Of a stretch of 34,357 bases of DNA, positions 5,523 through 16,219 are shown piece by piece; position 1 is the first letter of the stretch, and the number at the start of each line of letters is the position of its first letter. The notes under the pieces are model-generated. The model saw nothing but the letters and a program-made list of their open reading frames with translations, did not search any database and was not told where the DNA came from. This stretch comes from Lishizhenia tianjinensis (GTDB taxonomy: Bacteria; Bacteroidota; Bacteroidia; Flavobacteriales_D; Crocinitomicaceae): positions 1-34,357 of the forward strand of contig CAMAQX010000004.1 of assembly GCA_945860455.1 (NCBI GenBank), in the 5' to 3' direction. The translations under genes and the position numbers were made by a program.

Positions 5523-6425
5523 TTAACGAACGTATATTTTCTTGGTAACTTGACCTTGATCAAAAATTGTTTGAACTTGGTAAATACCCGTTGTAATATC
5601 ATTCAACACTATTTGAGTGTTTACATCGTTAATTTTAACACTATAAACTACTCTTCCTTCTAGGGAAACTAATTTCACCTCCCCTCCAATTAAATCAGGA
5701 GTAACATTGATATTAATCTGATCTAACATCGGTTTAATAGATACTTTGTCATCAACAGAAACTTGATTTAATCCAGAAACAGATCCTTCACCAGCAAGTA
5801 TTTGTTCATCTGGATTAATATTATAGGCGTAATCGTGTATTGTCAATTTTAGACCTGTTGGATCTAGGGTATCCAAGCTTAGGCGCACCCAACCATAATT
5901 AATATTAGTTCCTGCCGAAAATTTCATTCCTAAAAATTTCTGACTAACGCCCAAAAATTCACCTTGATTGATGTTGTAAGTAATATTAAATGCTGGAACT
6001 GAAACCACACCTTTTACACCAAGTGCGGCAGATTGAGAACTAAAATTATTTGCAGAAGTAATGGCATCTCCCCCATTGAGCGCTGTAACCCCAAAGGTAC
6101 TGCTCGAACCAATAACTTGTCCTTGAACACCACCAAGTGGGCCAGGTACAGCGTTAGCTTGCGACCCATTATATACATAGGTAAACGGAATCCCCATATA
6201 AGTAGATGACCCATTGCCATTGAACGAGGCGACTTGGAAAGTAATATCAATTCCTGTATCCACATTCATATCAATTTCAAACGGCCCACTTGTTTTATCC
6301 AAAACCACATCTGGATTAACATCGGTGTATTGAATATTTTGAGCTGTCGCCAAACCACTCATCAATAAGGAACTTGCGACAGCTGAGTAAGACTTAATTT
6401 TCGGGGATGTAGATAATTTATTCAT
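5523..6425 (-). CDS. Secreted protein with T9SS type-A-like C-terminal sorting domain
   Basis: Signal peptide MNKLSTSPKIKSYSAVASSLLMSGLATAQ; YTDVNPDVVLD motif; C-term INVTPDLIGGEVKLVSLEGRVVYS...GIYQVQTIFDQGQVTKKIYVR. Confidence 0.85.
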   Translation of the reverse strand: MNKLSTSPKIKSYSAVASSLLMSGLATAQNIQYTDVNPDVVLDKTSGPFEIDMNVDTGIDITFQVASFNGNGSSTYMGIPFTYVYNGSQANAVPGPLGGVQGQVIGSSSTFGVTALNGGDAITSANNFSSQSAALGVKGVVSVPAFNITYNINQGEFLGVSQKFLGMKFSAGTNINYGWVRLSLDTLDPTGLKLTIHDYAYNINPDEQILAGEGSVSGLNQVSVDDKVSIKPMLDQININVTPDLIGGEVKLVSLEGRVVYSVKINDVNTQIVLNDITTGIYQVQTIFDQGQVTKKIYVR

Positions 6426-6440
6426 AAATAATGTATTAAA

Positions 6441-6466
6441 ACAAAAAAGGCGGAATTACTTCCGCC
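6441..6466 (-). terminator. Rho-independent terminator downstream of the 6489..7346 gene
   Basis: Perfect 7-bp stem ggcggaa/ttccgcc (6449-6455, 6460-6466), loop ttac, then TTTTTTGT on the minus strand. Confidence 0.85.
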
Positions 6467-6488
6467 TTCAAATATAATAAAAAAAATA

Positions 6489-7346
6489 TTACTTAACGTA
6501 AACTCTTTTGTTCACTGAACCTGATTCAAAATTTGCAGTAACTGAATAAATACCAGAATCAACTCCTTCGAAAGAAATTGTAGTATTAACATCAGAAATA
6601 GCGATTGTTTTAACCACTTGACCCGCCATGCTAACCATGGAAATTGAACCACCAATTAAATCTGGCGTAACATTGATAGTTGCATCATTTAATGTAGTTT
6701 TGATTGTAACTTTATTTTCAACGGAAACATCTTCAATTCCAGCAGTTTGACAAGTATTAATAGTTGCACCTGGAGTTGCATTGAATGCATATTCTTTCAC
6801 TGTAATTGTTTCAGCATTGGCGGCAACAGAAAGTTTAACCCAAGCATAATGAGTTCCAGAAGTAGCAGTAAATTTAACACCTAAGTATTTGTCCGTAGCA
6901 CCTAAGAAAGGAGTTGTTGTGGAAGTAAAAGGTACTGTTCCGTTAATTAATGCGGCATATCCAAAGTTTCCGTAAGTATCAGTTCCAAATGTTGCAGCAG
7001 CAGAAACAGCAACACCACAATTCAACGCTGCAGCCATAGTTGCAGTATCAGCAGCAATGATTGCGTTTGCAGCAGGTATTGCAGCATAAGCTAATGCACC
7101 CTTATATGTGAAGCTTGAAGTAGCTCCTTCAATGTGAGCAACACCAAATGCGATATCCGGAGTAGCATCATTATTAAAATCAATAGCATAAGGATTTATT
7201 AACGTAGTATTTGAGTCTACAACCACGTCTGGATTTACATCCATATAGGTAATTTGAGCATTAGCAGCGCCTCCGGCTACAATTGCGCCAGCAACAGCTG
7301 TGTAACCAGCTAATTTAGACTTGTTGATTGAGGTAGTTTTTTTCAT
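6489..7346 (-). CDS. Secreted protein with T9SS type-A-like C-terminal sorting domain, paralogue of the 5523..6425 product
   Basis: Signal peptide MKKTTSINKSKLAGYTAVAGAIVAGGAANAQ; YMDVNPDVVVD; INVTPDLIGGSISMVSMAGQVVKT...GIYSVTANFESGSVNKRVYVK. Confidence 0.85.
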   Translation of the reverse strand: MKKTTSINKSKLAGYTAVAGAIVAGGAANAQITYMDVNPDVVVDSNTTLINPYAIDFNNDATPDIAFGVAHIEGATSSFTYKGALAYAAIPAANAIIAADTATMAAALNCGVAVSAAATFGTDTYGNFGYAALINGTVPFTSTTTPFLGATDKYLGVKFTATSGTHYAWVKLSVAANAETITVKEYAFNATPGATINTCQTAGIEDVSVENKVTIKTTLNDATINVTPDLIGGSISMVSMAGQVVKTIAISDVNTTISFEGVDSGIYSVTANFESGSVNKRVYVK

Positions 7347-7366: not shown

Positions 7367-7398
7367 TAAAAATACAAAAAAAAAAGTTTAACTACAAA
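7367..7398 (-). promoter_or_regulatory. Putative Bacteroidota promoter for the 6489..7346 gene
   Basis: Minus strand TTTG (7395-7398) - 20 nt - TATTTTTA (7367-7374), one mismatch to TANNTTTG; overlaps the stop of the upstream gene. Confidence 0.4.
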
Positions 7399-9947
7399 TT
7401 ATGTAAATATTTCTTCATTTTTTCCAAGTCAAAATCACAATTTAAGAATTCACTTAGAATTGATATTTGTTCCACATCAGAATCTAAAAGCTCATTCCAA
7501 TTCAGAATAAGAACTTGTTGATTTGGTTGAGATTCTATCCATAAATCAATGATGTATTTCTCCTTTTCAATGGTTTTTAACATCTTTACTGCAATTGATT
7601 TTTCAGGTATCGATTTTTTCAATTTCGAAGTTCTAACTGGAAGAATTTCATCCAAGGTTTGATCCAAATAAATTACTTTGTAGTCATAATTTACTGGTAA
7701 ATCGCTTAAATTTCGACTTGGAATGTAAACTACTTTACCGATATTGTTTATTAACCAATCATTTGTAAATAAAATTTTTGATGCTTCATTGAATTCATCC
7801 TTATCATAATCAATTTTTAGTCCTCCGATATTTAGCAACTGCAGTAATTGCTCATATTCACAATTATCAACTCCAGTACAAACAATAATGTCTCCTTTTA
7901 TATTTGATTTCAAAAACGCCAAATTTTGTTCGGCTAGTTCGGGTTTGTTTAGTTTGTTTTGATAAATTTCCACCAACCATTTATGCGCTTTAGTCATTCC
8001 GGGGGTAAGTCGAGTACAAACTTGAAAGGCACTAACAGCATCTTCAAATAAATCCAATTTCACCAAAGCTTCCCCTAAATGATAGTGAATATTTGGCTGA
8101 AAGAAATCTTGTTCTAAAGCCAATAGAAATTCATCTACTGCCTCATTAAATTTACTTTGGCGCAAAAAAGACAATCCTAATCCATAATGAGCAGCGGTAC
8201 TTCTGTCATCGATGGCAAGCGCTGTAATATATTGATTTTCTGCCGCTTTAAAGTTTTTTCTAAGCGTATGGATTTGAGCAATACTTGTGGCTAATTGCAG
8301 GTTGTTCGGATTTTTTTTCTGAACATTTTCCAATAATGGAAGTGCTTTTCTCGGACGATTCATGGCAAGATTCAACAGTCCTTCCAGGTATTCCAAATAC
8401 ATTGGTTCTTCAAACTCATTATTCCCAAATGGATCAAGAGATTGTTCAGTTTCTTGTTTTCTTTTAGTGCGTTCCTCTAAATCAACTACTTTAAGTTTTT
8501 CTATAACTTCTTGGCATTTCAGATACATTTTTTTACTCAAATAGGCAAATGCAAGTCGTTGACCATAGCGCAAAACATTCGATTCTTCAAAAATACGTTC
8601 CAAAATTTCTATCGCAGGTTTCAATCTCCCGCCGTTAATCATATTTCGAGCGATATAATATTCGTTTTCGCGCTTGCTTTTTTCAACTTGCAACAATTTA
8701 TCGTCTTCCATTGCTTCAATGTAACCCAATTCCACCAATTGTTGAAGTGCTTCTTGTGCAGCCCAAGGATCTTCGCGCATCAAGGTATCGTGTTGACCAG
8801 AATTTCCTTCAACATTTTCCCATGATTCAATCATGTGAGCAGGCGAAGGAGTAGAAAAACATTGATATAGTACCTTTCCTTCCATATCTTTTCCTACGGA
8901 CAATCCAGCATGATAAAGGATTGTTGGAGTAATATCAATAATACTTGCTCCAGAAATTTGTTCTCCTTGCTTTATTCCAGGGCCAGCCATCACAAAAATC
9001 CCATAAGGACTGTGCTCAACTGCTGGGCCCGAAGGTTCCTGTGGTATATAAAGCGGGCGTTGATGATCGGAATGAAATCCATGATCAGAAAGAAGAATTA
9101 CAGTTGTATTTTCATCAATCATGGATAAAGTACGATCTAACATCATATCATGAAAACGATATCCTGCCTCCACAACATCTTTATAGTTTTCAAAATCTTC
9201 AAGGGGGATTTCGGGCCTTCTTGGTGGGAAATAGCGCATTGCGATATGACAAAAATGATCAATTGCATCGTGATAAACAGCCATAAAATCCCATTCAGTT
9301 TCAGCCATTAAATAGGTAGATGCAGAATGGATAGTTGCGGCGTTGGATAATGTTTTTAGAACAGAAAGCGTTTTATTCGCTTTTCGTAATTCAAGATTAT
9401 CTACAATATTTGGCATAAAAGGATGGGCCATTGCCAACGAAATTTCGTGAGGATGAACCCTGAACTCCTTCATTGTTTCACTCAAAGATTCCGGGTGAAC
9501 AGTACCATTTGGCATTTCCCAATCTTCACCAAGGGCTTTTGTGGCAACTTGATACAAGTTTGAAACCATAACTCCATTAATGGGCTCTGCTGGGTTACTT
9601 GGCCACCATGCTACAACATTGCTTTTCCAACCTTCTTGATTGAGAATATTCCAAATTGCTTTCACTTTTCGGGATGTTGTAGTAACCGGCCTCAGTCCTT
9701 CTCCATTTGGCGTTGGCTCAACAAAACCTCCAATTCCGTGTTTATCTGCTCGAACTCCGGTTGCTATACTTGTCCAAAGCATGGGAGACAAGGGGGGGTC
9801 GAGGGTTTGTAATCGGCCATGAACCCCTCTTTTCATCAAGGATTCAATGGCAGGCATTTTTCCTTGTTCAATCAAAGGCATTATAATCTTCCAATCAGCA
9901 GCATCCCAGCCAATTACAAGTATTTTATTTTTTATTTTTTTTGACAT
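7392..9947 (-). CDS. Alkaline phosphatase/type I phosphodiesterase-family protein with TPR repeats and a C-terminal sulfotransferase-like (apparently degenerate) domain
   Basis: N-term KILVIGWDAADWKIIMPLIEQGKMPAIESLMKRG, PPLSPMLWTSIATGVRADKHGI, VILLSDHGFHSDHQRP; TPR stretch AAHYGLGLSFLRQSKFNEAVDEFLLALEQDFFQPNIHYHLGEALVKLDLFEDAVSAFQ; last ~171 aa align by eye with the neighbouring sulfotransferase. Confidence 0.88.
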   Translation of the reverse strand: MSKKIKNKILVIGWDAADWKIIMPLIEQGKMPAIESLMKRGVHGRLQTLDPPLSPMLWTSIATGVRADKHGIGGFVEPTPNGEGLRPVTTTSRKVKAIWNILNQEGWKSNVVAWWPSNPAEPINGVMVSNLYQVATKALGEDWEMPNGTVHPESLSETMKEFRVHPHEISLAMAHPFMPNIVDNLELRKANKTLSVLKTLSNAATIHSASTYLMAETEWDFMAVYHDAIDHFCHIAMRYFPPRRPEIPLEDFENYKDVVEAGYRFHDMMLDRTLSMIDENTTVILLSDHGFHSDHQRPLYIPQEPSGPAVEHSPYGIFVMAGPGIKQGEQISGASIIDITPTILYHAGLSVGKDMEGKVLYQCFSTPSPAHMIESWENVEGNSGQHDTLMREDPWAAQEALQQLVELGYIEAMEDDKLLQVEKSKRENEYYIARNMINGGRLKPAIEILERIFEESNVLRYGQRLAFAYLSKKMYLKCQEVIEKLKVVDLEERTKRKQETEQSLDPFGNNEFEEPMYLEYLEGLLNLAMNRPRKALPLLENVQKKNPNNLQLATSIAQIHTLRKNFKAAENQYITALAIDDRSTAAHYGLGLSFLRQSKFNEAVDEFLLALEQDFFQPNIHYHLGEALVKLDLFEDAVSAFQVCTRLTPGMTKAHKWLVEIYQNKLNKPELAEQNLAFLKSNIKGDIIVCTGVDNCEYEQLLQLLNIGGLKIDYDKDEFNEASKILFTNDWLINNIGKVVYIPSRNLSDLPVNYDYKVIYLDQTLDEILPVRTSKLKKSIPEKSIAVKMLKTIEKEKYIIDLWIESQPNQQVLILNWNELLDSDVEQISILSEFLNCDFDLEKMKKYLHNL

Positions 9948-10077
9948 TTTCCTTGGAAGAATTGCGTATTTCTAATTTTTCTTTTTCAACAACCTCACGC
10001 CATTTACGTATGCCAACATGACCAAGCGCCAACAAGCCTAGTGATCCTTGTGAAGTAATTTGATATTCTTTTTCCAT
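9925..10077 (-). CDS. Small ~50-aa hypothetical protein
   Basis: ATG at 10075-10077 gives MEKEYQITSQGSLGLLALGHVGIRKWREVVEKEKLEIRNSSKENVKKNKK; fills the gap between two co-directional genes, 1 nt after the sulfotransferase stop and overlapping the next start by 23 nt. The ORF track's longer start (10143) lies inside the sulfotransferase gene. Confidence 0.72.
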   Translation of the reverse strand: MEKEYQITSQGSLGLLALGHVGIRKWREVVEKEKLEIRNSSKENVKKNKK

Positions 10078-10078
10078 G

Positions 10079-10630
10079 TTAAATTCTATTTCTATAAAGT
10101 GAAGGATTAACAGCTGAGGCGAGATCCTGCCATTTAGCATCAATTTGCAAAAAAGTAATGACTTTTTCCAATTCGTTTTTTGGATTCTGTATCAATTCTT
10201 TGTATAAAATATCTAAATAAGGAATATTATTTGAAACAAAAAATTGATGTGTTTTTTGAATGTAAGTTTCATAAATTGCAGCAAATTTTTCTCGTTCAGC
10301 TTGTTGATCTTTGTTCAGCATTATTTCTTGTGAACGCAATATTTCCTCAATTTCTCTTCGCATAAAAATAACACGATACGACAGTGATTTATCTATAAAA
10401 ATTGGAAGAGGAGCAACGATTTTTACAACTTTTCCCTTGGCTGATTTCAAAAACGAATTATCTTTTACAATTCCTTTAACGGCATCTAGTTCGAAGTATC
10501 CTTCAGGATTATTGTTATCCTTTTGGCGGATACCATCTGTTAGAATTTCCAAGGATGATTTTTCCAAAATTTGCATCATTAAGGAAGTTCCGGATCTTGG
10601 TAAACCGGTTACAATTGTTACAACTGACAT
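10079..10630 (-). CDS. Sulfotransferase family protein
   Basis: P-loop 5'-PSB motif VTIVTGLPRSGTSLMMQIL; GYFELDAVKGI; SYRVIFMRREIEEILRSQEIML. ORF-track start at 10648 is a TTG; ATG at 10630 preferred. Confidence 0.88.
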   Translation of the reverse strand: MSVVTIVTGLPRSGTSLMMQILEKSSLEILTDGIRQKDNNNPEGYFELDAVKGIVKDNSFLKSAKGKVVKIVAPLPIFIDKSLSYRVIFMRREIEEILRSQEIMLNKDQQAEREKFAAIYETYIQKTHQFFVSNNIPYLDILYKELIQNPKNELEKVITFLQIDAKWQDLASAVNPSLYRNRI

Positions 10631-10645
10631 ACGTTCAAATTGAGA

Positions 10646-10653
10646 CAAATGTA
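10646..10653 (-). promoter_or_regulatory. Putative Bacteroidota -7 element (TACATTTG) for the sulfotransferase operon
   Basis: Exact TANNTTTG on the minus strand 16 nt upstream of the ATG at 10630; overlaps the TTG used as start in the ORF track. Confidence 0.42.
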
Positions 10654-10692: not shown

Positions 10693-11334
10693 TTAACTTT
10701 CGGAATAATCAGAAAACGATTGTTCATCAGCAAAATAATAGATTCTTACCAAGGCAGTATCGTTTAAAAAATCAATTTTACCGATATCAAATCGATTTAT
10801 ACTCAGTCCAGTTCTATTCTGCAAATCTGTTTTCATTTCTTCGTACTTTTCAGGTAATATTAAATCTATTCGTTCGTAGGTAATTGTTTTTCGCGTTTCA
10901 TGTTTCATTAACCACATGAATTCAAGCACATAAGTAATTACGACAACAGAAATATTAATAAGTAATACTTCACCAACCGACATACTACTATTAATTAACG
11001 CATTCACAACACTCACACCAATTATTAGAAAAAGGTAAGTCATTTCTTTAATTTCGATAGCATCCGTTCGATAGCGAATAATGCCAAAAATCGCAAAAAG
11101 TCCGAGCCCCATGCCCGTATCAATTCCAAATTTTTTCAACCCAAAACATAGAAAAAACGTGATGGTTCCGATCAAATAATAGGTAAATAGATAATCTTTG
11201 CGTTTTGTTTTGCAATAATAGAGAAAACGAATTATAATCGTTAAAAACAGCAAGTTGAAGCCAAACTTAATGATAAGGTTGTAAAAATCTGATGATACCC
11301 AGTTGATGTTTGCAAAAATTTCTGAAATATTCAT
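10693..11334 (-). CDS. DUF4956-family membrane protein
   Basis: Multiple TM segments; GMGLGLFAIFGIIRYRTDAIEIKEMTYLFLIIGVSVVNAL is characteristic of DUF4956; adjacent to a VTC-domain gene, as is common for this family. Confidence 0.85.
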   Translation of the reverse strand: MNISEIFANINWVSSDFYNLIIKFGFNLLFLTIIIRFLYYCKTKRKDYLFTYYLIGTITFFLCFGLKKFGIDTGMGLGLFAIFGIIRYRTDAIEIKEMTYLFLIIGVSVVNALINSSMSVGEVLLINISVVVITYVLEFMWLMKHETRKTITYERIDLILPEKYEEMKTDLQNRTGLSINRFDIGKIDFLNDTALVRIYYFADEQSFSDYSES

Positions 11335-11337
11335 GAG

Positions 11338-12093
11338 TTAACTATTTATTGAGTTTAAAATTTTTATTTTTTTCTTAAAACGATTTCCTTTAATTTTTTG
11401 TTGACCATGTATAGAGTACAAACCTACACAGTATTTACTGACACGAAGTGGACGAACACCTTGTTTTTTCATAATTTGATAAAAAAGTGAATTTCTATCT
11501 AAGTCGGCTTGTTTTAATTCAGCAACAACCACATTTTCCATTGCGAAATTGGATTCATCTTGATTGAAATTCAAATGTAAGTCAAGTGTAAGGCGTTCAT
11601 TCCTATTTTTTCCCGAGAGGGTGATGCGTTGAAATTCATTCCACAATACAGGAAGTAAATCCATTTTTTTTTGAAGGACATTATGAATAAACTCAATTTG
11701 AAAAGGATCGAATTTTTGAGCAAAATCAGTTAGTTCAATTCTAAGCTTATCTGTTCGATTTTTCACTTTATGTTTTATTTCCAAAAAATAGAGCTGAGAC
11801 TCAACATAATTTCGGATACGCACTTTAAATCGATTCACTCGTCCATTGTGATGTGCCTTAAAAAGCGAAAAGTTTTCATCATCGAAATACAAGCTTTTAT
11901 AGGTTTGAATCGTGCAATTATTTACTTGTAAACAATTAAAATCTTTAATCAAAAGTGGTAATAGTGAATTTAATGAGTCTATAGAAAAAACAAATTTTGT
12001 GTCTACACGATTCATTAACTTAATCTCATCCAACTCTTGTAATGTAATCCCATCAAATGGCTCCAATAAGGCTTGTACTTGTTGATCGTTCAT
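11338..12093 (-). CDS. VTC-domain (polyphosphate polymerase-like) protein
   Basis: LMNRVDTKFVF, YKSLYFDDENFSLFKAHHNGRVNRFKVRIRNYVESQLYFLEIKHKVKNRTDKLRIEL; start MNDQQ overlaps upstream stop as TAATG. Confidence 0.9.
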   Translation of the reverse strand: MNDQQVQALLEPFDGITLQELDEIKLMNRVDTKFVFSIDSLNSLLPLLIKDFNCLQVNNCTIQTYKSLYFDDENFSLFKAHHNGRVNRFKVRIRNYVESQLYFLEIKHKVKNRTDKLRIELTDFAQKFDPFQIEFIHNVLQKKMDLLPVLWNEFQRITLSGKNRNERLTLDLHLNFNQDESNFAMENVVVAELKQADLDRNSLFYQIMKKQGVRPLRVSKYCVGLYSIHGQQKIKGNRFKKKIKILNSINS

Positions 12094-12806
12094 TATAACC
12101 ACCTCACCCCCATTGTTTTACGTTTGCCTTTCTTCTTTGGTTGTATCTTATAGCAATAGGACATATTTAAAATATGGCGATACGTTGGATTTGGCAAGTT
12201 TAAAGATTGATCATAAATATATCCTAGAGCAAAATCATGAGGACCTTTTAATTCTAAACTAACACCAATAAACGATCTGATTTTTGAAAATCGTTTACCA
12301 AGTGGCCCATTAGCCGGATTGTAAAAAAACTCCACGGTAGCCGAAGGTGAAAAAATACTGTTATTAATATCGTATGAAATACTTGGTTTTAAGCGAAATG
12401 CTTGATCGAATTCAGGTTGGTAGTTTACACTCGCAACTCGGTCAAAAGAATATTGATAACGCAAACGAAAACCCAAATTGAGTCGATTGATTGATTTAGT
12501 AAATTGCAAATTAAAATTTAATCGATTTGAACCATTATAATTCGAATTTAACTCTCTTTTTATAACATATCTGTAGTCAATTGAAGGGCGAAACCAATCA
12601 TTTACCTTGTATTTTATAGAAGCTTGAGGAAACATTGTTTCAAATCCTTGATTGCCAATCCGATTTGTCCAATCAATAGTATAATCTAATCCTTTGACAA
12701 ATCGACCTTTAAATCCGGTTTCCATCCACAATTGCCCCTCTAAACTTTGGGAAAAAGCAATCAAATTCTGAAAAAAAAGGAGGGTAAAAATAATATATCG
12801 ACTCAC
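12093..12806 (-). CDS. DUF2490-family beta-barrel protein
   Basis: Signal peptide ending LIAFSQS; alternating beta-strand pattern, WFRPSIDYRYVIKRELNSNYNGSNRLNFNLQF, NLGFRLRYQYSFD; GTG start (12804-12806). Confidence 0.8.
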   Translation of the reverse strand: MSRYIIFTLLFFQNLIAFSQSLEGQLWMETGFKGRFVKGLDYTIDWTNRIGNQGFETMFPQASIKYKVNDWFRPSIDYRYVIKRELNSNYNGSNRLNFNLQFTKSINRLNLGFRLRYQYSFDRVASVNYQPEFDQAFRLKPSISYDINNSIFSPSATVEFFYNPANGPLGKRFSKIRSFIGVSLELKGPHDFALGYIYDQSLNLPNPTYRHILNMSYCYKIQPKKKGKRKTMGVRWL

Positions 12807-13196
12807 TTAGATTTTTTTTATGTTGATTGTATCCAAAGTTACAATCTCGTTATTCTCTGTAATTTCAATGGGTACAATAATTTCTTTTTTTCCACTCGGA
12901 CAGGTCAAACAATCTTCATAAACGAAAATTTTGTATAATCCTTTTTTCAAGTATCTGAATTCAAAACTTCCATCATAGCTTGTTTTGAGATCGTCGTCAT
13001 AAAATGTATTGCTATTTCCATAAATGATGTAAACATCTTTATCACCAACTGGATATTCAGCAATTATATTTCCTAATGTATTGTATTTCTGTTCTACAAC
13101 AACACCTTTAATTGTTGCTGAACCACCTTCACCTTCATATTTTGAACAAGAATTAAAAATTAAGATAAGAAAAGCAGCCCCAAAAAATAATTTCAT
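12807..13196 (-). CDS. Small lipoprotein with carboxypeptidase-regulatory-like fold
   Basis: Lipobox LIFNSC; ATIKGVVVEQKYN...TSYDGSFEFRYLKKGLYKIFVYEDC; first gene of the VTC/DUF4956 operon. Confidence 0.75.
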   Translation of the reverse strand: MKLFFGAAFLILIFNSCSKYEGEGGSATIKGVVVEQKYNTLGNIIAEYPVGDKDVYIIYGNSNTFYDDDLKTSYDGSFEFRYLKKGLYKIFVYEDCLTCPSGKKEIIVPIEITENNEIVTLDTINIKKI

Positions 13197-13315: not shown

Positions 13316-16219
13316 ATGAAACTTTTATTTTTAGTCGCTCTCACCCTAGTTTCCTGTTTTTCAATTAATTCGCAAGTATTAATTAACGAATATTCTTGTT
13401 CCAATATGTCGGGTCCAACTGATGCATATGGGGAAAGAGAAGACTGGATTGAATTATATAACCCAACAGCTACCATCGTCGATTTAACAGGATGGTATTT
13501 ATCGGACAAAGCATCCAATCTGACTAAATGGATAATTCCGAGCGGTTCGATCTCCGGTAGTGGCTATAAAATGGTTTTCTGTTCAAAAAGAAACACGGTA
13601 AATGGTAATCAATACCATCCAAATTTTAACTTATCGCAAACTGAAGGAGATTGGATTATTCTCTCCAATACGTTCGGTAATGTGGTTGATTCTTTCAAAA
13701 TTGTACACATGACCAAAGCAGATCATTCTGTAGGAAGATCAACCAATGGTGCGGCAGATTACAAACTATTTACTTCACCAACCCCAAATTCGGCAAATTC
13801 GGGTGCAATCAATTTTTATACTCCCAAGCCAGTTTTCAGTATTCAAGCTGGATATTATCCTACAACACAGACCGTAAGTATAACATGCCCTGATCCCACT
13901 GCAACAATTAGATATACCCTCGATGGAAGTGACCCAACTAGTACTTCAACCTTGTACACAGGACCTATAACAATAAGTACTACTAAGGTATTGCGTGCTG
14001 CTGCCTTTAGTACAAACCTACAGTCATTTACGGAAACAAATTCATATTTTATAAATGTAAGTCATAGTATCCCTGTTGTTTCCGTTTGTAGTCAAGGAGT
14101 GTTTACCCTTGTGGCCAATGGAAATCAGATTGAGCCAGTTGGTGGTTTTGAATTATTTGAAGAAACCGGATTGTTTATAGATGAAGGACAAGGAGATTTT
14201 AATGAGCATGGAAACGATTCTTGGGCATACGACCAACGAGGATTCGATTTCATTATGCGCGACCAATATGGATACAATAGTGATATTGAGCATCAAATAT
14301 TCCCGGACAACACAAGGGATAATTTCCAGCGATTGATTTTAAAGCCGGCTGCAAGTGATAATTATTCTTTTGAAAATGGAGCTCATATTAGGGATGCATT
14401 TATTCATACCTTGTCTATCCGTGCCGACATGAAATTAGATGAGCGAACATGGCGTCCTTGCGTTGTTTATTTAAATGGAGAATATTGGGGTGTTTATGAA
14501 ATAAGAGAGAAATGTGACGATCACGATTACACAGATTATAAATATAATCAAGATAAATTTCATTTGGAATACTTAAAAACATGGGGAGGGACATGGGAAG
14601 AATATGGTGCGCCAAACGCCCTAAATAATTGGAACAGTTTAACAAATTATATTGCAACCAACAACATGGGCAATGCAACTAATTTTGCATACGTGGACAG
14701 TCTTTTAAATTGGGAATCATTGTGTGATTATTTTATGTTCAATTCTTTTGTTGTAAATCAAGATTGGTTAAATTGGAACACTGCATGGTGGCACGGTACA
14801 GATACTTTAGGTGACAAGAAAAAATGGCGTTATACACTTTGGGATATGGATGCTACTTTTGGCCATTACGTGAATTATACTGGAATACCCGATAACTCAG
14901 CAAATGCAGACCCTTGTAATGTTGAAAACCTTCCTAATCCAGGAGGACAAGGCCATACAGAAATATTAGAAAAATTAATTAATGAAAATCCTCTTGTAGA
15001 ACAATATTACATTACGCGCTATGCGGATTTAGCAAACACGTATTTCTCTTGTAATTACTTAATTCCGTTGCTTGATAGTATGGTGAATGAAATTGCCCCG
15101 GAAATGACCGGCCAATGCCAAAAATGGGGTGGGTCTTATGCAGATTGGCAAAATAAAGTTACTACGCTGAGGAATTTTATTAATACAAGATGTACAGCAT
15201 TAACTGCGGGTATGATTGATTGTTATTCGTTAGCTGGTCCTTTCAATGTAACTTTCAACGTTAGCCCTGTAAATTCAGGCGAAATTAAAGTGAATTCAAT
15301 TTGGGCGCCTAATTATCCTTGGAACGCTAGTTATTATGGCGGAATACAAACCAATTTAATAGCAAAAGGACTTCCTGGTTTTATCTTTGATCATTGGGAG
15401 TATACGATTGGCCCAATGGGATTACCCATCATTTCAGATACAAACTTCATTAATATTTCCGGTATTGAAAATATAGTGGCTGTATTTATTGTAGATGATC
15501 CAACAGAAGATACAGACGGAGATGGGATCACTAATGTTAACGAAAATACGGGGGGTTCTGATCCTTTGGATCCTTGTGACCCAAATCCGAGTACTGCACC
15601 ATGTGATCAAGATAGCGATGGATTAACCAATACAGAGGAGGCAGCAACTGGAACCGCAGCAACAAATCCAGATACAGATGGAGATGGTTTAACGGATGGG
15701 GATGAAGTAACCAATGGGTCTGACCCGTTGAATCCATGTGATCCAGACGACAGCAGTGTTGATTGTCAAATAGATACAGATGGTGACGGATTGCCTGATC
15801 CCCAAGAAGCAAATTTATGTACAGATCCAACTTTGTTTGATACCGATGGAGATGGATTGAGCGATGGAATGGAAATAAATACTGGTTCAAATCCATGCGA
15901 CCCTTGCAGTCCGGTAAATGATTCACCAGATTGTGCAGATGGCATACATATTCCTACCGCTTTTTCGCCTGATGGAGATGGGAATGTTACTAATGAATTC
16001 TACTCAATCATTGTAGGAAAGAATGTTAAATCTATTCAATTCATCATATTCGATCGCTGGGGCAATATAATACTTCAAACTACAAACAAGCAATTTACTT
16101 GGGATGGAACCTTCAAAACAAAAGACTGCAACAGTGGGATATATGCTTTTCAAGCACTAGTAGAATATATAAATGGAACTTCTGAAACAATTACCGGAAA
16201 TATTACTTTGATACGATAA
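13316..16219 (+). CDS. Secreted multidomain CotH-kinase-family protein: lamin-tail domain, chitobiase/HEX C-type domain, CotH kinase, thrombospondin type-3 repeats, CHU_C (T9SS type-B) domain
   Basis: VLINEYSCSN...EDWIELYNPTATIVDLTGWYLSDK (LTD); ATIRYTLDGSDPTSTSTLYTGPITI (CHB_HEX-like); WRPCVVYLNGEYWGVYEIREKCDDHDY and WRYTLWDMDATFGHY (CotH); repeated DTDGDGLTDGDEV (TSP3); IPTAFSPDGDGN...GIYAFQALVEYINGTSETITGNITLIR (CHU_C). Confidence 0.92.
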   Translation: MKLLFLVALTLVSCFSINSQVLINEYSCSNMSGPTDAYGEREDWIELYNPTATIVDLTGWYLSDKASNLTKWIIPSGSISGSGYKMVFCSKRNTVNGNQYHPNFNLSQTEGDWIILSNTFGNVVDSFKIVHMTKADHSVGRSTNGAADYKLFTSPTPNSANSGAINFYTPKPVFSIQAGYYPTTQTVSITCPDPTATIRYTLDGSDPTSTSTLYTGPITISTTKVLRAAAFSTNLQSFTETNSYFINVSHSIPVVSVCSQGVFTLVANGNQIEPVGGFELFEETGLFIDEGQGDFNEHGNDSWAYDQRGFDFIMRDQYGYNSDIEHQIFPDNTRDNFQRLILKPAASDNYSFENGAHIRDAFIHTLSIRADMKLDERTWRPCVVYLNGEYWGVYEIREKCDDHDYTDYKYNQDKFHLEYLKTWGGTWEEYGAPNALNNWNSLTNYIATNNMGNATNFAYVDSLLNWESLCDYFMFNSFVVNQDWLNWNTAWWHGTDTLGDKKKWRYTLWDMDATFGHYVNYTGIPDNSANADPCNVENLPNPGGQGHTEILEKLINENPLVEQYYITRYADLANTYFSCNYLIPLLDSMVNEIAPEMTGQCQKWGGSYADWQNKVTTLRNFINTRCTALTAGMIDCYSLAGPFNVTFNVSPVNSGEIKVNSIWAPNYPWNASYYGGIQTNLIAKGLPGFIFDHWEYTIGPMGLPIISDTNFINISGIENIVAVFIVDDPTEDTDGDGITNVNENTGGSDPLDPCDPNPSTAPCDQDSDGLTNTEEAATGTAATNPDTDGDGLTDGDEVTNGSDPLNPCDPDDSSVDCQIDTDGDGLPDPQEANLCTDPTLFDTDGDGLSDGMEINTGSNPCDPCSPVNDSPDCADGIHIPTAFSPDGDGNVTNEFYSIIVGKNVKSIQFIIFDRWGNIILQTTNKQFTWDGTFKTKDCNSGIYAFQALVEYINGTSETITGNITLIR
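15505..15940 (+). repeat. Thrombospondin type-3/calcium-binding DxDGDG repeats within the CotH protein
   Basis: DTDGDGITN, DQDSDGLTN, DTDGDGLTD, DTDGDGLPD, DTDGDGLSD separated by NPCDPxx linkers. Confidence 0.85.

Follow-up and report, generated by a model that had tools for sequence, protein, structure and literature searches.

A predicted sulfotransferase, a microprotein and a phosphodiesterase-TPR protein linked to secreted proteins with a KLxxY-type signal

The minus strand of a 34,357-nucleotide stretch of Lishizhenia tianjinensis DNA (contig CAMAQX010000004.1, positions 1 to 34,357; the window) carries a compact cassette of three genes: a sulfotransferase (183 aa; 10079..10630), a microprotein (50 aa; 9925..10077), and a protein that joins an alkaline phosphatase (AP)-superfamily domain to tetratricopeptide repeats (TPR) (AP/TPR; 851 aa; 7392..9947). 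The enzyme, the microprotein, and the secreted proteins encoded beside them, here called clients, are almost certainly linked. The best explanation is a cytoplasmic enzyme complex using 3'-phosphoadenosine 5'-phosphosulfate (PAPS) that recognizes and modifies dedicated proteins before their export, a reading that we hold with about even confidence; we infer both its reaction and its acceptor. The parts come from known superfamilies, and the system itself is apparently undescribed. An earlier note on this DNA knew of no described system of such composition, and our full-text searches, which left subscription journals mostly outside their coverage, agree in finding no matching description.

Linkage of the cassette to secreted clients

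The three packed minus-strand genes of the earlier note were confirmed to the base: a 1-nt gap separates the sulfotransferase from the microprotein, and the microprotein and AP/TPR genes share 23 nt. The sulfotransferase starts at an ATG, and a TTG at 10648 is likewise in frame. Downstream, the unit runs on past the earlier note's boundary into two secreted-protein genes on the same strand. The first client (285 aa; 6489..7346) begins 45 nt past the AP/TPR gene and consists of the signal MKKTTSINKSKLAGYTAVAGAIVAGGAANA, followed by Q, a beta-sandwich, and a C-terminal domain of the type IX secretion system (T9SS) type. This domain scores below the cut-off (20.5 versus 23 bits), yet the model of the client matches solved T9SS C-terminal domains with TM scores of 0.71-0.79 of the target. 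The second client (300 aa; 5523..6425) has the signal MNKLSTSPKIKSYSAVASSLLMSGLATA, also followed by Q, and a T9SS sorting domain at 27.2 bits against the cut-off of 23. A fold search with the client mature domain returned nothing besides the T9SS domain. The window's genome encodes only these two clients, both at this locus.

The AP/TPR protein was scanned against 84,980 genomes, which gave 79 loci, and further loci drawn from the window's order and phylum were added later. The microprotein lies immediately upstream of 45 of the 65 well-flanked AP/TPR genes, 41 of these copies overlapping the gene or standing no more than 20 nt away. Client-type proteins are encoded within 1 kb of 46 of the 65 (34 downstream on the same strand, 10 divergent). 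The earlier note had read the tight packing as a sign of one pathway and had named rare adjacency in other genomes as the result that would speak against it. Adjacency instead proved common, and the microprotein positions and the sulfotransferase distribution described below bear the idea out.

Co-occurrence was determined in 160 genomes of the window's order. The AP/TPR gene is present in 19 of them, and strong client matches are found in the very same 19; the weakest match in an AP-positive genome has an E value of 4.9e-21 compared to 1.4e-16 for the best match in an AP-negative genome. The microprotein is encoded in 16 of the 19 AP-positive and 0 of the 141 AP-negative genomes. Adjacency and co-occurrence together led us to reject a chance grouping of the three genes. 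Because AP-linked loci supplied the sequences for the client model, the signal itself contributes part of the client score; comparing the signals of linked and unlinked homologues tests the client linkage independently. A phylum-wide sample of 248 genomes contains the AP/TPR gene in 2, one of which (G121) has no client match at E 1e-5, and says only that the system is rare. The co-occurrence could not be replicated in an acidobacterial sample because it holds a single true member (668 bits), its distant AP/TPR paralogues scoring at most 343 bits. Distinct AP/TPR-type proteins, many of about 1000 aa and in up to seven copies per genome, occur in Acidobacteriota (L144-L172; 207-343 bits to the AP model).

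The N-terminal signals were compared between linked clients and homologues that share the mature domain but come from AP-negative genomes or stand unlinked in AP-positive ones. All 52 AP-linked clients have a KLxxY/F-type signal, with Tyr in 50 and Phe in 2. None of the 21 unlinked homologues has it; their signals are short and of the ordinary Sec type. The mean signal length is 30 residues in the linked clients versus 20 in the unlinked homologues, and the peak hydrophobicity is 1.88 versus 2.61 (p 8e-10). As far as sequences can tell, this comparison shows that the system is inherited with the proteins bearing a KLxxY(S/T/G) signal and not with their mature domain. At four loci (L055, L074, L087, L089) a KLxxYS/RYG-like motif stands apart from the hydrophobic segment, which suggests that the motif is an independent recognition element. 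Three client homologues lie in tandem at L138:5697-8421 (genome G333); the special signal is found on the outer two, and the one between them bears an ordinary Sec signal of the unlinked type. The client model was trained almost wholly on Bacteroidota, and it finds AP-adjacent clients in other phyla at E <1e-6, at loci labelled Nitrospirota, Acidobacteriota, Ignavibacteriota, and deltaproteobacteria.

Composition of the enzyme and its genomic setting

Pfam upholds the two enzyme assignments of the earlier note, with 39.3 bits for Sulfotransfer_3 in the stand-alone sulfotransferase (cut-off 27) and 89.1 bits for Phosphodiest (PF01663) in the AP domain (cut-off 23). The sulfotransferase, a minimal stand-alone form, has the P-loop GLPRSGTS (residues 9-16), D32, K70, and the R92/S100 3'-phosphate motif. 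The P-loop GxPRxGTS and R92...S100 are invariant in 44 of 44 sulfotransferase sequences, and both PAPS motifs are kept along with D32 and K70. Its AlphaFold model (pLDDT 91) finds sulfotransferases as its best PDB matches, with E values down to 3.8e-5; Teg12, TPST2, and the SULTs are among the closest solved folds. Motifs and fold place the protein in the PAPS-dependent sulfotransferase superfamily, and sulfuryl transfer is its predicted activity.

The AP domain of the AP/TPR protein (8709..9935) is of the type I phosphodiesterase type. Residues D15, S54, D230, H234, D288, H289, and H312 are invariant in 28 sequences, and the two-metal site is complete. Ser54 is the candidate nucleophile, assigned by aligning its motif by eye with known phosphodiesterases. 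A formylglycine sulfatase that reverses the sulfotransferase was rejected: the C/S-x-P-S/A-R motif is absent and S54 sits in LSPMLW. The cycle of group transfer and removal put forward in the earlier note is unsupported. Several Pfam TPR models match the region that follows (approximately residues 430-664; 7956..8660). The protein has no signal peptide and is assigned to the cytoplasm, so it would meet its clients, if at all, before export. Near the AP cassette of two related genomes (L028:4435-6006 and L139:7834-9405) lies a gene for a secreted protein, about 523 aa long, that looks purple-acid-phosphatase-like by eye.

The AP/TPR protein ends in a degenerate sulfotransferase-like tail (7398..7892) that has lost its P-loop. 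Pfam gives this tail only a sub-threshold Sulfotransfer_1 match (E 0.044), and a model built from relatives scores it at 55 bits over residues 686-850, in agreement with the tail that the earlier note had described. Most relatives have an intact sulfotransferase domain at this end of the AP/TPR protein, and the domain belongs to the subfamily of the stand-alone gene in the window. None of the 64 loci with an intact tail, PRTGTS variants being scored as intact, has a stand-alone sulfotransferase. A stand-alone copy accompanies 27 of the 33 AP genes with a degenerate or absent tail, the window included (Fisher p 1.5e-18, with related loci treated as independent). The six split-tail loci that have no such copy are three acidobacterial loci, a planctomycete contig, L053, where the contig ends right behind the gene, and L139. 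Because intact tails exclude a stand-alone copy and lost tails mostly accompany one, we read the window as carrying the split form of an AP-TPR-sulfotransferase. The fused or split state changes several times on the AP/TPR tree, and by a quick method well-supported branches force six changes for the "split" label. Natural fusions and complementary splits show by comparison that the three predicted activities belong together. At L137, L134, L029, and L028 two cassettes stand in tandem. Microprotein and AP/TPR gene are each present twice there, beside several clients, but only one sulfotransferase is intact, as though it were shared.

APS kinase makes PAPS, and its gene was found in genome G000, where PAPS supply is therefore present. 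The gene occurs in 18 of 19 AP-positive and 72 of 141 AP-negative genomes of the order (p 1.5e-4); leaving out the frameshifted copy in G333 gives 17 of 19 (p 1e-3). Shared ancestry is ignored in both values. APS kinase adjoins the enzyme gene in G331 and has similar coordinates in G418.

The window's microprotein, recognized from its open reading frame, conservation, and position upstream of AP genes, has the core (Q/E)GSLGLLALGxxGxxxWR and no match in Pfam or NCBIfam. Among 35 sequences the core is GSLGLLALGxxGLxxW, A17, G19, and W26 are invariant, and no Tyr is conserved. The microprotein is naturally fused to the N terminus of the AP enzyme at L052 and L066. Gene overlap and this natural fusion show by comparison of the loci that the microprotein belongs with the predicted AP domain. 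A microprotein model run against 7,821 open reading frames also matches client C termini at L053 (E 1e-10 and 7e-10), L063, L067, L093, and L102; the last four pass E 1e-3 and further matches are weaker. The matched segments form the extreme C termini of secreted proteins adjoining the AP gene at loci that have no separate microprotein. The tails of several clients in those other phyla are recognized as PEP-CTERM or IPTL-CTERM sorting signals, and exosortase is present in most of these genomes. In our reading, the microprotein is a tail-like element acting in trans with the enzyme; its common descent with the client tails is suggested rather than shown.

Upstream of the cassette, the element TACATTTG (10646..10653, minus strand) is a candidate Bacteroidota -7 promoter element. 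The earlier note had reported this exact box as the cassette's own, and the box is indeed present. The window holds 58 TANNTTTG boxes against 52 +/- 7 expected, so they are no commoner than chance and their count was dropped as evidence by itself. The box is plausible as a real promoter because five relatives, three of them with unrelated flanks, retain it a short way upstream of where their sulfotransferase begins. A terminator-like hairpin (6446..6469, minus strand) stands behind the first client gene. The neighboring operon (10693-13196, minus strand) encodes a DUF4956 protein, a VTC (polyphosphate polymerase-type) domain protein, a DUF2490 protein, and a small protein. It also adjoins the cassette at L024 and L025, and other genes stand there at L027. 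On the plus strand, 13316-16219 encodes a 967-aa secreted protein in which lamin-tail-like, CotH-like, and calcium-binding-repeat-like stretches and a gliding-type C terminus were recognized by eye. A defense system was rejected, PADLOC giving no match.

Proposed route and alternatives

The proposed enzyme, divided here between two genes, would combine a phosphodiesterase-type domain that has a two-metal site with TPR repeats and a sulfotransferase dependent on PAPS, and it would work together with the microprotein. In the cytoplasm, the TPR/AP part would recognize the signal while the client is unfolded. Using PAPS, the sulfotransferase would then modify either the client or a group that it carries. 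The AP domain may perform a coupled phosphoryl or sulfuryl ester step. The client would finally exit through Sec and then type IX secretion. We take the microprotein for a detached tail, which would now act on behalf of the enzyme in trans, as its subunit or membrane tether. Whether the enzyme acts on the client itself we judge to be an evenly balanced question, and a sulfated client as the product is a tentative proposal. A signal Tyr that serves as the universal sulfation site was ruled out because the residue is Phe in two clients, both of G409, and Tyr is missing from some proteobacterial clients.

Those departures from the signal also weigh against the proposed route, as do several other observations. 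No sulfotransferase is seen close by at L139 and at some acidobacterial loci, and G030 has the cassette yet no APS kinase match. The microprotein is missing beside the enzyme in G318 and G015, and several loci with both the AP gene and the microprotein have no adjacent client detectable by the model.

Four other explanations were weighed. An enzyme that modifies a cytoplasmic small molecule, lipid, or glycan, with the secreted proteins as carriers or anchors and the signal timing or localizing their export, is unlikely, though one of the two main rivals. Small molecules and glycans are the usual substrates of PAPS-dependent sulfotransferases, Teg12 and the SULTs stand beside TPST2 among the closest solved folds, and the AP domain falls with the type I phosphodiesterases. 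However, no glycosyltransferase or lipid gene recurs in the cassette among the loci tabulated, and the co-inherited partner is a protein signal, for which an enzyme of soluble metabolites would have no need. A glycan or lipid target, which the earlier note had entertained, finds no support, the strongest partner being a secreted protein class with a special N-terminal signal. The other main rival, still less probable, sees in the AP/TPR protein chiefly an export chaperone or gatekeeper specific to the clients, with PAPS, PAP, or dinucleotide chemistry regulating export. The TPR repeats, the cytoplasmic location, and the tie to a weakly hydrophobic signal fit such a role, and PorX, an AP-superfamily phosphodiesterase linked to the T9SS (PMC10951265), is a proposed precedent. 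Against a gatekeeper speak the complete sulfotransferase active site, retained even after the domain moves to its own gene, and the presence of the system in phyla whose clients have PEP-CTERM or IPTL-CTERM tails and not T9SS domains.

The two remaining explanations concern the microprotein. It is very improbable that the sulfotransferase makes it into a RaxX-like sulfated signaling peptide that the neighbors mature or export. Its small gene does adjoin the sulfotransferase gene, as raxX adjoins raxST (PMC6637879), but its core has no conserved Tyr, it is fused to the AP enzyme at two loci, it accompanies AP/TPR at fused loci as well, and the cassette has no transporter gene. Slimmer still is the chance that it is an exosortase substrate standing alone as an orphan PEP-CTERM signal, a reading which we disfavor despite the likeness to PEP-CTERM client tails in exosortase-bearing genomes. 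Three representative microproteins fall below the PEP-CTERM cut-offs (best 11.9 versus 20.7 bits), and no exosortase-family gene (PF09721) was found in 15 genomes of the window's family (the window's genome and 14 others).

With client modification before export as the preferred reading, it is possible, at somewhat less than an even chance, that several phyla share an undescribed maturation system. A KLxxY signal would direct pre-export modification by a phosphodiesterase-TPR-sulfotransferase, and the tail-like element would have become a trans-acting microprotein in Bacteroidota. If so, bacteria own a dedicated route of pre-export protein modification with its own recognition signal and enzyme. 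A large multi-domain enzyme known to databases by its domains alone would gain a function, and a conserved microprotein of about 50 residues would be explained. Protein sulfation would become testable in environmental Bacteroidota, Acidobacteriota, Nitrospirota, and others. The difference in signal between linked and unlinked homologues is a natural experiment already at hand.

Relation to known systems

The cassette resembles RaxX-RaxST in placing a PAPS-dependent sulfotransferase gene beside an exported polypeptide that would be its target, and the tyrosylprotein sulfotransferase TPST2 is among the top fold matches of the window's enzyme. Unlike RaxX-RaxST, it has no type I secretion genes and no small precursor with a conserved acceptor Tyr among the 35 microproteins. 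Its clients are beta-sandwich proteins of about 285 aa that share no universal acceptor Tyr, and its sulfotransferase is usually fused to AP and TPR domains. On protein Tyr as the acceptor, as in tyrosylprotein sulfotransferases, the signs are divided: TPST2 and the SULTs are both among the closest folds, and 50 of the 52 linked clients have Tyr in the signal, the other two having Phe.

The likeness to PEP-CTERM/exosortase systems lies in the client tails of the other phyla, in the exosortase of most such genomes, and in the microprotein core, which resembles such a tail. In the window's family, by contrast, exosortase was not found, the microprotein scores below the cut-offs, and the linked signal is N-terminal. 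The PglZ protein PorX, whose nucleotide chemistry is proposed to regulate type IX secretion, and type I phosphodiesterase/AP enzymes share with the AP/TPR protein a cytoplasmic AP-superfamily domain with intact metal ligands and a tie to type IX clients. Unlike in PorX, a response-regulator domain was not found in the AP/TPR protein, where TPR and sulfotransferase parts take its place, and the cassette also occurs in phyla whose clients have no T9SS tails. The window's clients resemble type IX (Por_Secre_tail) cargo in bearing a T9SS-type C-terminal domain, and they differ from it in their N-terminal signal, which departs from the usual Sec form and is linked to an enzyme of its own.

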